Program-made: the position numbers and the translations under genes | Shown here: one piece after another, positions 234 through 11,690 of the stretch | Layout: each line of letters starts with the position of its first letter | Numbering within the stretch: position 1 is the first letter of the stretch | Notes under the pieces: model-generated | What the model was told of the DNA's origin: nothing | Database searches by the model: none | Seen by the model: the letters and a program-made list of their open reading frames with translations, nothing else | NCBI GenBank assembly: GCA_003599535.1 | Contig: QZKQ01000019.1 | Location: forward strand, 1 to 34,830 | DNA length: 34,830 nt | Reading direction: 5' to 3' | Source: Candidatus Zixiibacteriota bacterium | GTDB taxonomy: Bacteria > Electryoneota > B3-LCP

Positions 234-2360
234 TTATTTCAGCAGGACGAGTTTCTGCGTCTGGGTGTCTCCCCCCGCCGTTAACCGGGCGAAATACATC
301 CCGCTGGGCAGACCGGAAGCGTCAAAGTTTACCTCATGCACGCCCGCTTCCTGCCAACCATTCACCAGCGTAGCTACCTCCTTCCCGGCAGCATCATAGA
401 CCCGGAGGCGGACATGGTTGTACGCGGTCAGCTGATAGTTGAGAGCGGTTTCCGGGTTAAAGGGATTGGGATAGCTGCCCAAGAGGACAGAGGTCTCCGG
501 GAGGGGAGCTTCCGAAGCCACGTCAAAGCTCTCGCCAAAGTTAGCCCACTCCTTCACCCCGGGTTCGCCGTCACCCAGCAGCTTGGTGTACCCGAAACCC
601 GAGCTGTCCCAGACGGTGTTGGGATATTCGCCCACGAAGCCGCAGTAGTAGTAATCGCCCGGGTCGGCGGTGGCCGGCACATACTGGGTGCGGGTCCGGC
701 TAAGGCTGGCGCCGGCGGGCAGGTTCAGGGATAGGGGACCCAGCATGGGACCCATCCAGGGATTTCCGGCCATTTGCTGCATGATCCAGGCATTGCAGGT
801 CTGCGGCAAGCCGCTGATATTGACCAAGTCGGCCGTGAAGCTGAAGTCGCCGCCACCGGGGAAAATAATGATGGGCGAGAACTGGGGCGTCATTGTCACT
901 TCAACCGGCGGCGGGAGGGGGTTGCCCAGAGTGCCGTTCGAGTTGACGTTCTGCGCGTAAAGGTCGGCAAAATCAGTGCGGCTGTCGTACCAGGCCAGGA
1001 AGGCGCGCTGCTCCGGATTCATGGCCATCTGCAGACCGCCCTTGCCGCCCAGGGAGGCCGCGGAGAAGACGATCGGTCCCCAGATGGGGAGGCCCCACTC
1101 GTTGCTGCGGAGGGCCTTGGCTTCAACGTTGGTCAGGTCGCGCGTTTCCAGCCAGGCAAGAGTATGGTAGCCGCCTCCGGGCAGGGCCCTCAGGCAAATG
1201 ATATCATCGTTGCTCAGGGGGATGAATTCCTGGCCGCTGTCGCCCCAGAACCGGAAGCCGTCCACGGCGAACTTCTGCCCATAGATCCCGCTCTGGGTCT
1301 GCGACGCATTCTTTTCAATCCAGAACATGTAGATCGCATCCTGTTCTGCCACGAACGATAGGGTGGGATCCATGTGCAGGGTGGCGGGATTGGTCGAAGC
1401 CGGAATCCCGTTGACGGGGAAGCTTAGGCTCCCATCGAACTCCACATGCCCCAGGTTAGCGAAAAAGTTGGTTAGCTGCGGGGAATCGCACCAACCGTAG
1501 TAGGCGCCCCCGACCCCGTCCGCCACGATCAGCGGGTAGGTCCACGCCGACATGTGGCCCAGGTTGTAGATCACCACCCCGGAGGGATTCCACAGCGGGA
1601 CATGGTCGGCATCGAGCTTCTGAGTGTACAAGGAAGTGGTCGGCGACCATATGGGCCCGGTGGAGTTCTTCCAAACGAGGATCACATTGTCATATTCCGT
1701 CGCTACCAGGTCCACGCCCGAAAGCCTTTCTCCCACGGCCCCGGTCAGGGTGATCCCGTTATCGCCCCACAACTTCTGGCCGCTGCCGGACAGCTTCTGC
1801 AGGCCGAGGGTCTCTTCCGTCCCGAACTTGACCCAGGCAATGACGTAGTTCCCGGCCGGGGTAACGGCCACCTTGGGGACGGCTTCAAATTCCGTATTGA
1901 CCGGGGACGACAGGCTGATGCCGTCCGCGCCCCACAGGAATGACCCGACCGGACTGATCTGGTAGGCGACCACGTCCAGGTCGTTGGCGCTGCCGTGGCG
2001 CAGGTCGGAAAAGACAATGACGGCATTGTCGCCGGGATCCACGGCCAGGTCGTAATCCACCAAGGCCGTCTCCTGCGGATGGCTGCTGATCACCAGACCG
2101 TTGGTCGCCCACTGGGGTTCGCCTGCGGAATTCAGGCGCTGCAGGTACATGCAGTAGCTGCCACTGCGGCCGTCGAACCAGGAAATGTAGCAGCCGTTAT
2201 CCGAGGTCGCGGCGATTTTGGGCAGCGTCTGGTCGCCGTTCGCGACCGCGATGCCCAGGTTCTGCAGCGGATCCGAACTCCACTGCGCATGGCTGACTTG
2301 CAAGCCGAGGCCCAAGACAGCGACCAGGGCCATGATCTTCACGAGGTTTTTCCCGCTCAT
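234..2360 (-). CDS. Secreted beta-propeller-like repeat protein with T9SS-type sorting tail
   Basis: The protein has 708 residues. The start at 2360 is chosen over an ATG 15 bases upstream because AAAGGGAG sits 4 bases before it. A signal peptide ending VSHAQ covers about residues 1-26. About eight repeats of 50-60 residues follow. Their loose consensus is a hydrophobic pair and W-x-D-x-R, then YxQKL, then G...WG..G-I/V (for example WFDGRSGSY, FSDLRHG, AWYDSRTD). This looks like a beta-propeller. A Pro-rich Ig-like stretch follows, and the last 78 residues are a sorting tail (PNPFNPET ... SGMYFARL ... KLVLLK). The ligand and function are not recognisable. It is probably exported by a type IX system and displayed on the surface. 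Confidence 0.85.
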   Translation of the reverse strand: MSGKNLVKIMALVAVLGLGLQVSHAQWSSDPLQNLGIAVANGDQTLPKIAATSDNGCYISWFDGRSGSYCMYLQRLNSAGEPQWATNGLVISSHPQETALVDYDLAVDPGDNAVIVFSDLRHGSANDLDVVAYQISPVGSFLWGADGISLSSPVNTEFEAVPKVAVTPAGNYVIAWVKFGTEETLGLQKLSGSGQKLWGDNGITLTGAVGERLSGVDLVATEYDNVILVWKNSTGPIWSPTTSLYTQKLDADHVPLWNPSGVVIYNLGHMSAWTYPLIVADGVGGAYYGWCDSPQLTNFFANLGHVEFDGSLSFPVNGIPASTNPATLHMDPTLSFVAEQDAIYMFWIEKNASQTQSGIYGQKFAVDGFRFWGDSGQEFIPLSNDDIICLRALPGGGYHTLAWLETRDLTNVEAKALRSNEWGLPIWGPIVFSAASLGGKGGLQMAMNPEQRAFLAWYDSRTDFADLYAQNVNSNGTLGNPLPPPVEVTMTPQFSPIIIFPGGGDFSFTADLVNISGLPQTCNAWIMQQMAGNPWMGPMLGPLSLNLPAGASLSRTRTQYVPATADPGDYYYCGFVGEYPNTVWDSSGFGYTKLLGDGEPGVKEWANFGESFDVASEAPLPETSVLLGSYPNPFNPETALNYQLTAYNHVRLRVYDAAGKEVATLVNGWQEAGVHEVNFDASGLPSGMYFARLTAGGDTQTQKLVLLK

Positions 2361-6837: not shown

Positions 6838-9537
6838 TTACTTCGCCTCCCCTGTCAACACGAAGGCGGCCCAGGCATGCAGGCCGGAGTACTTATCCCG
6901 GGTATCCAATTGCGCTCGGCGCAACGCCGTGGCTTTGTCCTGTGTTTGTAGATAGTGGTGGAAGCGCTCCGCCAGGTACGCCGTGGAGGCGTCTTCCACC
7001 TGCCACAGCGACGAGAGTACCGAGGGCGTTCCGGCATAGAGAAAAGCCCGGGTCAAGCCCACCACTTCATCTCCATTGGTCAGATGACCCAGTCCCGTCT
7101 GGCATCCCGACAGCACCACCAGGGAAGCGTGCAGGTCCATCCCGAAGATTTCGTGAACGGCCAGCTCCCCGTCTTCGGTCGAGTCCGGGGCCAGGAGCAG
7201 GCAGGAAAACAGGGGATAGGCGGCGTTCAGGTCGCCGTGGCAGGCGAGGTGCAGGACATCATAATCCGCGGCATGGGCTTTGAAATGTGCTTCGGTGGCC
7301 TGCGGCCCGGCCAGCACCAGGGCGCGCCGGTACCAGTTCCCGATTTGCTGCACTTCAGCCTGGGCCTGGGGCAGGGCGGGGTAACCTTCCCGGGCGGTGG
7401 CAGGATTGCCCAGGGCCAGGAGACGCTGCCCCCGGGGGCGGCGTTTGGGGATTAGGTAAGGTATGACGGAAGCGGAGGGGAGATAGCGCAGAGTGTAGTC
7501 GTCCAGCAGGTACCTGCCTTCGGGATTCTGCAGGGCGGCAAAGGGAAGATAGTGCAGGATGCCGTGGGGCACGATGACCAGATCTTTGGCCTCCAGCTTC
7601 CCGGCGGGGGCGATCAGCAGATCGTAAAGTTGCCGGGACAGGCGCTGCGCGGCGGGCTGGTCTTCCGTTTCGATGGCCTGGCGGAAGGCCAGCACCAAGG
7701 CTTTCAGACTGTCGCCGCCGATCGCCACCGTGAAGACTTCCGCCTGCTTGCGGGTGACGGCCCACAGCAGGGCCTTTTCTTCGGTAAGGAAGTATTCCAG
7801 CAGGGTGGTGCCCTTATCCAGCAGTTTCTGCACTTGGGGCAGGGTCAGGGGGTCCACGGAGACCAGGGAGGCCAGTTCTGGCTCCTGGCGCTTCTGCTCT
7901 TCCAGCCCGGCCAGGACTGCGCCCCAATCTCCCTCCAGCTTGCCTCGCAGGAGAACCACTTGGGCGGTGTCTTCGCCGGCCTGCTGGATCAGCCGTTCAG
8001 TCTCTTCCTTCTGCTGGTAGTACTGGTTCTCCCGGGCCAGGAATTCACGGTGCCGCGGCTTGCCGATCTTCACCTGCCCGGAAGCCAGCAGGTCCAGAAA
8101 GGAGCGGGCCCGGGCGCGCTCGGCGTAGTGGAAGGCGGGGGGAAAATTTTGATGTTTATTGAGAAGCAGGATGATTTTCTCATAGTATTTTGAGTACTTC
8201 GAAGCATAATTGCTCTTTTGGGATTCACTTTGGAGATGACCGCGAATAGTCTCGGCCATTACTATGGACTTGTCAAAAAACGATATTGCTGATGAATCGT
8301 TTCCTTTGAATTCGTAGCCTTTAGCCATTTGGCTGTAAATATCCATTATTACGCCTTTAGCACCGTTCCGTTGCATGACTGGTAAGGCCTGTATTGCACT
8401 TTCCAGAGCAAGGTCGTATTGCTTTATTTCGAGACAAAAGCTTGAATAAATAACTCGAAACGCAGCCAGCAAATCCTCGTTTTTCAAATTCTCGGCTATC
8501 TTAAAGCTTCTGTCGAAATAATCCTTTGCCTGTCCCATATCTCCCATCATCTGATTTGTTCGGCCTATTACATGATAACATACTGCAATACTTCGCTTAT
8601 CATCAACTTTCTGGAAATATTCTAGAGCTTCGAAAAAATCTGGTAAAGCGTTTTGAAGATTTTGATCTTTACTGCTGATAGTTTCTACTCCTCGACCCAT
8701 TACGGCAGAAGCTATCAGGTATGGATTACCCAATTCTCTGCTGAGTTCAACGTTTCGCTGAAAAATTTCCAACGCTTCCGTGCGATATCCCAATGTACCG
8801 TATATTAAGGCGAGGTTTGTATTCACCTGGCATTCTCCGAGTTTATCGCTTATCGATCTATATAATTCCGAGCTACTTTTAAAGTATTCAAAAGCATGTT
8901 GATAATTTCCATATGATTTCTGTATTAATCCGATAGTATTCAAGACGTATGCCTCATTCTTCTTGTCGTCGATGATTCTGAACAACTTCAGACTCTCTTC
9001 AGCCATTATTTGTGCGCTGTCAAATTTAGCCATATTCACCACAAAATGACGAGCCAGTGCTGAGAGAGCCGATGCTTTGGTGCTATCAGCCCCAATCTCA
9101 TGGGCTACTTTTATGCTCTTTAACAACATATCTATTCCTAGGCTGTCTTGTGAGAGGGTCAAATAAGTACGGCCCAATAACCTCAAAGCTTCGCATTCAT
9201 CCGCTACGAGTCCGCACACTCGCGCTGTGTTCATGCTGCGCTCGAAGAAAGTAAGGGCATCTTGACCTTTTTTTAAATTAACCAAAGTCATACCTACCGA
9301 TCGTGACGTGCGAGTCTGATTCTCTAGTGCACCAATCTGAATATAATTATATAAAGCTGACTGGTATGCCTTCAATGCTTCCTCCAGTCTGCCCTTTGAT
9401 GTTAAAGTGTCCCCCTGCTCCACATAAGCTTCCGCTTCCGCCTTCACCTTCACCGTGTCCACCACCTGGGAGTGGACAGACGCCGCTGCCAGCAGCAGCG
9501 CAGCGGCCAGAGACAATGCTGCCATGAGAGAACGCAT
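6838..9537 (-). CDS. Exported TPR-CHAT caspase-like protease
   Basis: The protein has 899 residues. An N-terminal signal peptide (about 1-23, ending SVHSQ) is followed by a long helical TPR array (about 25-440), a charged coiled-coil region (about 490-580) and a C-terminal CHAT domain (about 620-895). The caspase-like dyad is visible: His767 in HLACHGDL and Cys812 in LSGCQTGLG. CHAT proteins are cysteine peptidases of the separase/caspase clan. The signal peptide suggests this one acts outside the cytoplasm. AGGAGGG 5 bases before ATG supports the start. The TPR-coding DNA (about 8150-9400) is only about 40% GC while the CHAT part and neighbours are above 60%, which suggests a mosaic origin. 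Upstream on the same strand are a sigma factor and a TPR-bearing anti-sigma factor. A functional link is inferred. Confidence 0.9.
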   Translation of the reverse strand: MRSLMAALSLAAALLLAAASVHSQVVDTVKVKAEAEAYVEQGDTLTSKGRLEEALKAYQSALYNYIQIGALENQTRTSRSVGMTLVNLKKGQDALTFFERSMNTARVCGLVADECEALRLLGRTYLTLSQDSLGIDMLLKSIKVAHEIGADSTKASALSALARHFVVNMAKFDSAQIMAEESLKLFRIIDDKKNEAYVLNTIGLIQKSYGNYQHAFEYFKSSSELYRSISDKLGECQVNTNLALIYGTLGYRTEALEIFQRNVELSRELGNPYLIASAVMGRGVETISSKDQNLQNALPDFFEALEYFQKVDDKRSIAVCYHVIGRTNQMMGDMGQAKDYFDRSFKIAENLKNEDLLAAFRVIYSSFCLEIKQYDLALESAIQALPVMQRNGAKGVIMDIYSQMAKGYEFKGNDSSAISFFDKSIVMAETIRGHLQSESQKSNYASKYSKYYEKIILLLNKHQNFPPAFHYAERARARSFLDLLASGQVKIGKPRHREFLARENQYYQQKEETERLIQQAGEDTAQVVLLRGKLEGDWGAVLAGLEEQKRQEPELASLVSVDPLTLPQVQKLLDKGTTLLEYFLTEEKALLWAVTRKQAEVFTVAIGGDSLKALVLAFRQAIETEDQPAAQRLSRQLYDLLIAPAGKLEAKDLVIVPHGILHYLPFAALQNPEGRYLLDDYTLRYLPSASVIPYLIPKRRPRGQRLLALGNPATAREGYPALPQAQAEVQQIGNWYRRALVLAGPQATEAHFKAHAADYDVLHLACHGDLNAAYPLFSCLLLAPDSTEDGELAVHEIFGMDLHASLVVLSGCQTGLGHLTNGDEVVGLTRAFLYAGTPSVLSSLWQVEDASTAYLAERFHHYLQTQDKATALRRAQLDTRDKYSGLHAWAAFVLTGEAK

Positions 9538-9867: not shown

Positions 9868-10719
9868 TCACCGGTCCGCCGCCTGAAGACGGGTCCGCAG
9901 CGCCTCGGCTTGGGAGGTGTATTCGCCACCGCGGCGGATGATATCGTCCAATAGCAGCCGAGCCTGGTCCGGTTCCTCCAGCGCCAGCCAGGCCTGCGCC
10001 AGATACCAGCGGGAAGTAATTTGAAGCGGTTTATTGACGGCTTCCTGCGCCCGGAGCAGCGCCGGGACGGCGTCCCGATATTGATGATTCAGGTAGCGGC
10101 TGACTCCCAGGTAGAGCCAGTAGCGGTCTTCCGCGGGCGCCAGGTCCACCGCACGTTCCAGGTGGCCGGCAGCTTCGCCGTAGCGGCCCTGCAGATACGC
10201 CTCCATGCCCGTTTCGAACGCCTCCCGCGCTTCCGCCGGCGGTTCCACCGTCCCCCGGTAGGTGGAGGGCGTGTAGGACGCGGGGGAAAAGTCCAGGTAG
10301 GGCCGGTAGGGATTGCGGCCCGTCACCAGCACCAACAGCAGGATGAAGGCCGCGGTGGAGGCGGCTGGGATCCAGACCGCCGGCCGGTTGAACCGCTCCC
10401 ACCAAGCGCGCAGCCGTGCCCGCAAGTCTTTCCGCCGATTCCCGGGTTCCAATTCCGGCTCTTGCGGCAGTTCGGCCGGCGAATCGGCGGGAAAGCGGAC
10501 CCCCCTTCGCTCCAATTCCGCCAGGATGGCTTCGCGGTGAGTCCGCATCCGGGCCATCAACGGTTCGGCCTTCCGCAGTTCTTCCAGACAGAAGGGGCAG
10601 ACCATCAGGTGCTCTTCGAAGCGGCAGCGGCCGGCTTCGTCTAACCGGTCGAATTCGTAGAGGAGAAGCAGGCGGCCTACTGCTTCGTCGGTGCATTGCG
10701 GTGGCACGATCGGTTCCAT
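9868..10719 (-). CDS. Membrane zinc-finger anti-sigma factor with exported TPR domain
   Basis: The protein has 283 residues. The ATG at 10719 overlaps the sigma factor stop (TAATG). The cytoplasmic N-terminus carries a zf-HC2-type zinc finger, with HLMVCPFC giving His37, Cys41 and Cys44 and an upstream Cys (Cys9 or Cys32) as possible fourth ligand. One membrane helix follows (about 114-133, VWIPAASTAAFILLLVLV). Residues about 165-280 form three TPR-like helical repeats (for example EAYLQGRYGEAAGHLERAV), predicted to lie in the periplasm. zf-HC2 proteins next to ECF sigma genes usually hold the sigma factor inactive. The external TPR part would sense a partner or signal. The exported TPR-CHAT protein encoded next is an obvious candidate, which is inference. 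Confidence 0.85.
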   Translation of the reverse strand: MEPIVPPQCTDEAVGRLLLLYEFDRLDEAGRCRFEEHLMVCPFCLEELRKAEPLMARMRTHREAILAELERRGVRFPADSPAELPQEPELEPGNRRKDLRARLRAWWERFNRPAVWIPAASTAAFILLLVLVTGRNPYRPYLDFSPASYTPSTYRGTVEPPAEAREAFETGMEAYLQGRYGEAAGHLERAVDLAPAEDRYWLYLGVSRYLNHQYRDAVPALLRAQEAVNKPLQITSRWYLAQAWLALEEPDQARLLLDDIIRRGGEYTSQAEALRTRLQAADR

Positions 10720-11318
10720 TAGCGAATGTCCCCCACCAGCAGCCGGAGGCGTCTGCGGCAGTCGAAAACGCGTTTGTCGAAGGCGCTGCGCTGCAATTCC
10801 GGTTCGCGGCCCCGGAAGTAACTCCACAGCTCCTGCAGGCTGCGCTCCTGCAACAGACCGAGGAAGAGGTTGCGGCAGAAATCCGGCAGGCTTTCGAGCG
10901 CGTCGGCGACCATCCGCACCGTCTCGCGCAGCTCAATTCCGCTCAGAAAGCCGTCGCTGTCTTCGGGATACTGCGCAGGAAGGGCCGGAGACCGGTCCGG
11001 ATTATCCGCGGCGTCCGCCGAAAGGGTGACCGTACCGGGTCTACGGCGCTGTAGAATGTTGCCGATCTTGTGGCGCAGGATTTCGCAGGCGTAGGCCTGG
11101 GGATTGGAATGCACGGAATCCAGTTTCTGCAGGAAAGTGTACAAGCAGTCCTGGACCACGTCTTCCTGATCCTGGCGCGACCAGCCCCACAGTCTATGTT
11201 TGGCCAATTGGCGCAATCTTACCGCCAATTCCTGGCACAGGGCTTCCCGGGCTTGCACTTGGCCTGCCTGAGCCTGGCGCAAAAGCTCATCCCACCCGCC
11301 GGGGCTTTCCTGCAGCAT
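10719..11318 (-). CDS. ECF-like RNA polymerase sigma factor
   Basis: The protein has 199 residues. The start at 11318 (MLQESPGG...) has GGGAG 5 bases upstream; an upstream ATG pair at 11399/11396 lacks a ribosome site but lies only about 10-13 bases past the predicted transcription start. Region 2 is at about 20-90, with the typical core DVVQDCLYTFLQKL and a basic end RHKIGNILQRRR. A variable linker follows, then region 4 helices at about 145-199 (LPDFCRNLFLGLLQERSLQELW). The long linker and unusual region 4 suggest a divergent ECF group. It shares one base with the anti-sigma gene, so the two are translationally coupled. Confidence 0.85.
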   Translation of the reverse strand: MLQESPGGWDELLRQAQAGQVQAREALCQELAVRLRQLAKHRLWGWSRQDQEDVVQDCLYTFLQKLDSVHSNPQAYACEILRHKIGNILQRRRPGTVTLSADAADNPDRSPALPAQYPEDSDGFLSGIELRETVRMVADALESLPDFCRNLFLGLLQERSLQELWSYFRGREPELQRSAFDKRVFDCRRRLRLLVGDIR

Positions 11319-11415
11319 TGAGCTCCCGACTGTAAAACGGAGTTGGCGTGCTGGTATTCGAAACCCGACCAGCCACAATCTGCCTACCGGATGCATCATG
11401 ATCGAAAGTGACGGA

Positions 11416-11614: not shown

Positions 11615-11690
<76 letters not shown>

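Follow-up and report, generated by a model that had tools for sequence, protein, structure and literature searches.

In regulated proteolysis of the DegS/RseA/RpoE type, an ECF sigma factor is set free when an exported sensor-protease (a PDZ serine protease) cleaves its membrane anti-sigma factor. Mosaic genes are known in which a variable sensor or repeat domain has been recombined between conserved flanks. Among the nearest described systems is Csx29, the TPR-CHAT protein of type III-E CRISPR (Craspase/CASP); according to PMC10028731, Csx29 cuts Csx30 with the result that CASP-sigma is relieved, and regulated proteolysis of the DegS/RseA/RpoE kind is named there as well.

The window, by which we mean the whole stretch of 34,830 nucleotides analyzed here (contig QZKQ01000019.1, Candidatus Zixiibacteriota bacterium), holds a TPR-CHAT gene that resembles Csx29 in that a TPR array and a CHAT protease with conserved His and Cys are encoded alongside a sigma factor and an inhibitor of it. 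It differs in having a leader and a membrane anti-sigma factor in place of Csx30 and a TPR array that is unrelated in detail. Membership of the Csx29/Craspase group can be ruled out: the Csx29 model NF041237 is among the curated models closest to the CHAT part, although it reaches just 60.2 bits (aa 648-868) against a cut-off of 300, and a RAMP-type effector (Cas7-11/gRAMP, PF03787) had no match in the organism's own genome, which is 93.75% complete. The likeness to the DegS type would lie in the proposed logic only, from exported sensor-protease through a cut membrane anti-sigma factor to a free ECF sigma factor; a CHAT cysteine protease with a TPR sensor stands in place of the PDZ serine protease, and cleavage is our proposal. 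With recombination mosaics the gene has in common a variable interior, native ends and joints at conserved blocks. It differs from them in being a TPR-CHAT signalling protease, and the mosaics of its own genome are mainly proteins with C-terminal secretion tails.

Results

A putative CHAT protease beside an ECF-like sigma factor

The reading frame of the gene is unbroken, as the initial annotation had it, and encodes a hydrophobic leader-like stretch (aa 3-21), a TPR array (TPR_12, E 2.4e-33) and a CHAT domain (PF12770, aa 631-897, E 4.7e-72; 243.3 bits against a curated cut-off of 24). The motifs HLACHG and LSGCQTG hold His767 and Cys812, which we take to be the catalytic residues of CHAT, and both are conserved in 11/11 aligned proteins. 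On the strength of the domain and of this His/Cys pair we regard the product as a putative CHAT protease. The structure model places TPR helices at aa 35-461 and is good for the TPR part only (mean pLDDT 57.9, CHAT part mostly below 50); a fold search with it returned 'TPR superhelix' and nothing more. One CHAT gene was found in the genome, a draft of 140 contigs and 3.8 Mb at 63% GC. Coordinates of the features are collected in Table 1.

Table 1. Features of the TPR-CHAT locus, in positions of the window
Feature	Position	Strand	Remarks
TPR-CHAT protease gene (putative)	6838..9537	-	899 aa; hydrophobic leader, TPR array, CHAT domain
C-terminal part, native composition: helical linker + CHAT with His767, Cys812	6838..8142	-	GC 64.2%
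Interval with 3' GC joint, codons 464-468	8133..8145	-	GC3 interval (2-lnL, approximate); directly before conserved YAERARARSFLDLLASG
Low-GC segment: TPR array + pre-CHAT end, codons 34-465	8143..9438	-	GC 40.9%, GC3 0.405
Interval with 5' GC joint, codons 30-44	9405..9447	-	2-lnL interval (approximate)
5' part, native composition: leader, codons 1-33	9439..9537	-	GC3 0.76 over 33 codons
Anti-sigma-like protein	9868..10719	-	H-x3-C-x2-C zinc motif, one predicted TM helix, C-terminal TPR
ECF-like sigma factor	10719..11399	-	stop overlaps anti-sigma start by one base

Upstream of the protease gene lie genes for an anti-sigma-like protein, whose start we set at the ATG at 10719 by homology, and a sigma factor that we call ECF-like, its scores being under the curated cut-offs (Sigma70_r2, 21.2 bits of 24; TIGR02937, 29.1 of 42.9). 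The zinc motif of the former reads HLMVCPFC and its membrane helix has a hydropathy of 2.35 at aa 150; the two features make it a candidate anti-sigma factor of the ZAS type, and similar ones are present in five homologues. Across the eight orthologue loci (L032-L039), a sigma homologue stands beside TPR-CHAT at 7/8 (two of them weak, one of those at a contig end) and an anti-sigma homologue at five. In five of the eight loci the order is TPR-CHAT followed by sigma and anti-sigma; the window has sigma, anti-sigma, TPR-CHAT, unlike those relatives whose loci showed the full trio. A tRNA-Pro gene (ggg; 11616-11690, minus strand) lies directly upstream of the block.

Taken together, the leader, the zinc/TM anti-sigma factor and the conserved CHAT His/Cys pair point to an exported sensor-protease that would free a sigma factor. 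The TPR array, once exported, may bind an envelope or extracellular signal; binding would unleash the CHAT His-Cys protease, whose target would be the membrane anti-sigma factor on its periplasmic side, and the cut would release the sigma factor, by analogy with the relief of CASP-sigma when Csx29 cuts Csx30.

A GC step with narrow borders inside one reading frame

The initial annotation had described a sharp GC drop to about 40% at 8150-9400, and a count gives 40.8% there (its figure of 23 G+C in the 60 bases at 8281-8340 is exact) against 63.5% for the window without the low segment. Its statement that the flanks exceed 60% holds for the coding flanks; the 330 bp intergenic stretch upstream of the gene is at 48.5%. 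The step is not explained by amino-acid content alone, which we rejected as its cause since all three codon positions shift and the third does so most: GC at positions 1/2/3 is.479/.343/.405 inside the segment and.724/.418/.784 after it. GC3 is about 0.41 in codons ~33-465 and 0.78 elsewhere in the gene. Segmentation raised the GC3 log-likelihood by 66.2 (coarse grid); when the third-position states were shuffled 60 times, the gain never exceeded 10.2. A tally of stretches of 1296 nt with GC <= 0.415 gave 50 of 10894, in three places; its step size passed over the TPR segment, and we make no use of it. TPR-CHAT ranked first for internal GC3 contrast among the 676 ORFs (180 aa or longer) in the 1.16 Mb of the genome that was scanned. 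Several other ORFs with a strong GC3 contrast (among them L054 11259, L069 16655, L062 18398, L053 6554, L061 5767 and L059 16053) showed no fall in total GC and were set aside by eye as reading on into non-coding frames; for this reason later counts demanded low total GC in the segment.

Codon use gave a similar picture. The mean log-likelihood of the low piece was -1.10 with the codon use of G025 and -1.11 with that of G001, both low-GC relatives, and -1.68 with that of its own genome, while the C-terminal part was fitted best by its own genome (-0.88). In composition and codon use, then, the low segment is unlike its host and like another lineage.

The maximum-likelihood GC3 breakpoints fall at codons 33 and 465, with the intervals given in Table 1. 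In logistic fits a step did better than a gradient at either joint, more clearly at the 3' one (lnL -194.4 at a width of 0.1 codon, -197.5 at a width of 10). The 5' joint lies within or directly behind a conserved block that comes after the leader (VVDTVKVKAEAEAYVEQGD, around aa 25-43, shared by homologues, e.g. QPLDTLKIKAEADSL). The conserved block YAERARARSFLDLL starts just after the 3' joint, which falls between predicted helices 438-461 and 466-486 of a model that is reliable for the TPR part only. A change at a domain boundary had been proposed; this is so in that the 3' joint marks the end of the TPR superhelix at aa 465, although the Pfam CHAT match begins 166 residues further on. Flanking repeats and traces of a mobile element were looked for at the joints and not found, a point that counts against import of the segment.

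Homologues, divergence and the search for a donor

TPR-CHAT homologues were found in 61, then 39 surrounding genomes: two each in G010, G004 and G025 and one each in G001, G002 and G031. A contig search added one more, a distant homologue in a genome of the Desulfobacteraceae. The comparison set was ten homologues, CHAT ORFs of about 2,700-2,900 aa being left out. Orthologues with the same GC drop had been named as evidence that would speak against a swapped domain; none of the ten has a comparable GC3 step (CHAT-TPR difference -0.04 to +0.13; the window gene has +0.38), though in nine the TPR part is slightly lower in GC3 than the CHAT part, clearly so in L035 (+0.11, z 3.7) and L032b (+0.13, z 3.9).

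The TPR part has also diverged more than the rest of the gene would predict. Against eight orthologues the CHAT part of the window gene is 44-60% identical and its TPR array (aa 76-420) just 17-25%, where a line fitted to 28 pairs without the window gene gives an expected 32-44% from the CHAT identities; the array falls 2.5-3.2 s.d. under that line in 8/8 comparisons, which are not independent of one another. In trees of the two parts the end branch of the window gene measures 2.7-3.4 for TPR and 0.82-0.83 for CHAT. Congruent trees, cited by the initial annotation as a sign against its reading, were recovered in part: there is no topological conflict and L032 of G010 is the nearest homologue in both, with weak support (TPR 92/91, CHAT 67/69).

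Residues 421-464, still of low GC, show a similarity to homologues that is usual for the family (45% identity to L032), and the last ~45-65 residues of the low-GC piece resemble ordinary pre-CHAT sequence of TPR-CHAT proteins. The likely donor is therefore another TPR-CHAT gene and not a free-standing sensor domain. A protein search of 386 genomes, plasmids and viral contigs gave no close source for the TPR part, the best matches in the 386 genomes being mostly unrelated TPR proteins at 24-29% identity over most of the length (short pieces up to 35%). A DNA search of the organism's own genome with the TPR segment gave no close source either. Neither a donor nor a strongly conflicting tree was found for the segment.

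A second case comes from G010, where two TPR-CHAT genes (L032:500-3118 and L032:5983-8460, plus strand) are separated by less than 3 kb. The two are 61% identical over TPR and 36% over CHAT, identity dropping at aa ~465-500. The pair shows that in another genome, too, TPR and CHAT parts separate at about the site of the 3' joint, either because one was swapped or because one was converted.

Low-GC interiors in other exported repeat proteins

Of the 572 ORFs of 250 codons or more in the own genome (G000), 16, TPR-CHAT included, have an interior segment of low GC between native ends (at least 80 codons, segment GC below 0.53, GC3 clearly higher in the flanks). Such mosaics make up 14/82 ORFs with a secretion-tail match and 2/490 without (Fisher p 5e-11), one of the non-tail cases (L166 7889-9133) having perhaps a wrong start. 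The thresholds of segment GC were 0.42 for G004 and 0.47 for G005, and the excess among tail proteins was weak in both (G004, 1/27 tail vs 2/127 others, p 0.44; G005, 5/42 vs 3/96). The stretches scanned were picked for tail proteins or repeat hits, partly in G000 and for about half in G005, and these frequencies are therefore not genome averages; the contrast between tail and non-tail ORFs in G000 is less affected. Matches to Por_Secre_tail number at least 150 in the 3.8 Mb genome, one of them in the window at 246-473 (minus strand). Two further genes are at 37-38% GC throughout, namely L054:2366-6037 (plus strand; a SEC-C protein, part of which looks NTPase-like) and L068:579-2303 (plus strand; an AAA_15/AAA_21 protein), and are ordinary foreign-looking genes in a genome of 63% GC.

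The 11 mosaic interiors that we read were mostly repeat arrays, beta-helix, propeller-like or FG-GAP-like, the naming being partly by eye. Low GC as a general trait of repeat arrays was ruled out: beta-helix arrays of the own genome range in GC3 from 0.32 to 0.90 (n=12). In L085 the low-GC array is 56% identical to that of a relative (L187) vs 41% to the best own paralogue found, and the tail 66% identical to own tails vs 53% to the relative. L183:13967-16132 (minus strand) and L190:10130-12313 (plus strand, G005) are orthologous secretion-tail proteins from two genera that have in common a leader-high, interior-low, tail-high GC3 mosaic, with interiors just 36% identical. Since the mosaic is common to such diverged genes, recent import does not explain L183, and a mosaic need not be a recent import. 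No other observation weighs as heavily against extending a simple 'recent import' to every case.

Discussion

We favor, as the probable though far from settled explanation, that a native TPR-CHAT gene in an ECF-sigma/anti-sigma unit had its TPR stretch replaced by a matching stretch of low GC. Import of the piece and the type of donor are inferred; the most likely source would be the TPR-CHAT gene of some other lineage, one with a GC of about 40%. Both joints sit at conserved blocks of the family, one behind the leader (aa ~33-44) and the other the ER.RARSFLDLL helix before CHAT (aa 465). Since leader, linker, protease and partners stayed native, the input sensor would have changed and the output been kept. 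The initial annotation had spoken of a recently acquired or swapped sensor joined to a native protease. The swap agrees with low GC confined to the TPR array, with the native CHAT part, leader and partners, with the excess divergence of the array, with the lack of a comparable step in ten homologues, with the G010 pair and with the other mosaics of the genome, L085 among them; 'recently' and 'acquired' stay unproven. Literature searches brought up no published account that matched such domain swaps in full.

The main rival, to which we give a low probability, is that nothing was imported and that recombination has been uneven along the gene. An array that evolves too fast, or varies too much between strains, would lack partners for homologous recombination, and GC-biased gene conversion, or else selection for high GC, would act on leader and CHAT and not on the array, which would drift to an AT-rich mutational equilibrium. 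Several observations agree with this: (i) low-GC interiors sit at a GC3 of about 0.24-0.41 across genomes of different GC (window, 0.40; G005, 0.29-0.30 in L190 and L207; G004, 0.32 in L150; G010, 0.38 in L032b; G025, 0.24 in L035); (ii) the L183/L190 mosaic is common to diverged orthologues and (iii) the tails of L085 and L060 13486 resemble own paralogues more than they do the relatives they were compared with, an outcome expected of gene conversion. Against it, many repeat arrays of the same families are not AT-rich, as the beta-helix range attests, and the TPR arrays of the ten homologues differ little from their own CHAT parts. In addition, a step gives the best fit to the 3' border, and CHAT has no paralogue in the genome with which to convert.

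A swap in the opposite direction, in which a whole TPR-CHAT gene of low GC entered and the resident gene then overwrote its leader and CHAT part, would give the same final structure and would account for the family-typical pre-CHAT end of the low-GC piece (aa 421-464), as expected of a whole-gene donor. We hold it to be distinctly unlikely, for it requires two exchanges and a resident copy, and a single CHAT gene was found in a nearly complete genome. The least credible account is an assembly chimera that brought reads from some low-GC organism into the gene; a draft in many contigs allows for it, but both joints are in frame at conserved protein blocks, 15 further ORFs have the same pattern, nearly all of one protein class, and one such mosaic recurs in another genome.

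If replacement of the TPR stretch is right, the gene would illustrate clearly how a signalling protease can trade its sensor and yet retain protease and sigma/anti-sigma partners, the joints being placed to within a few codons, and internal GC3 segmentation would be a simple screen for swapped domains. Patched genes in this genome are concentrated in exported repeat proteins, and the L183/L190 pair makes it testable whether low GC is a mark of import or of recombination that differs lastingly from one part of a gene to another. The TPR-CHAT/sigma/anti-sigma unit would also stand as a CRISPR-free parallel to the Craspase switch. More tentatively, and we would not yet bet on it, exported repeat arrays (TPR, beta-helix, propeller, FG-GAP) may form a shared set of exchangeable cassettes in this bacterial family, with one array after another taking its place behind a native leader and ahead of an equally native C-terminal module, be it a CHAT protease or a secretion tail. 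Were this so, sensors and cell surface would undergo a standing re-specification that leaves in-frame GC scars behind.
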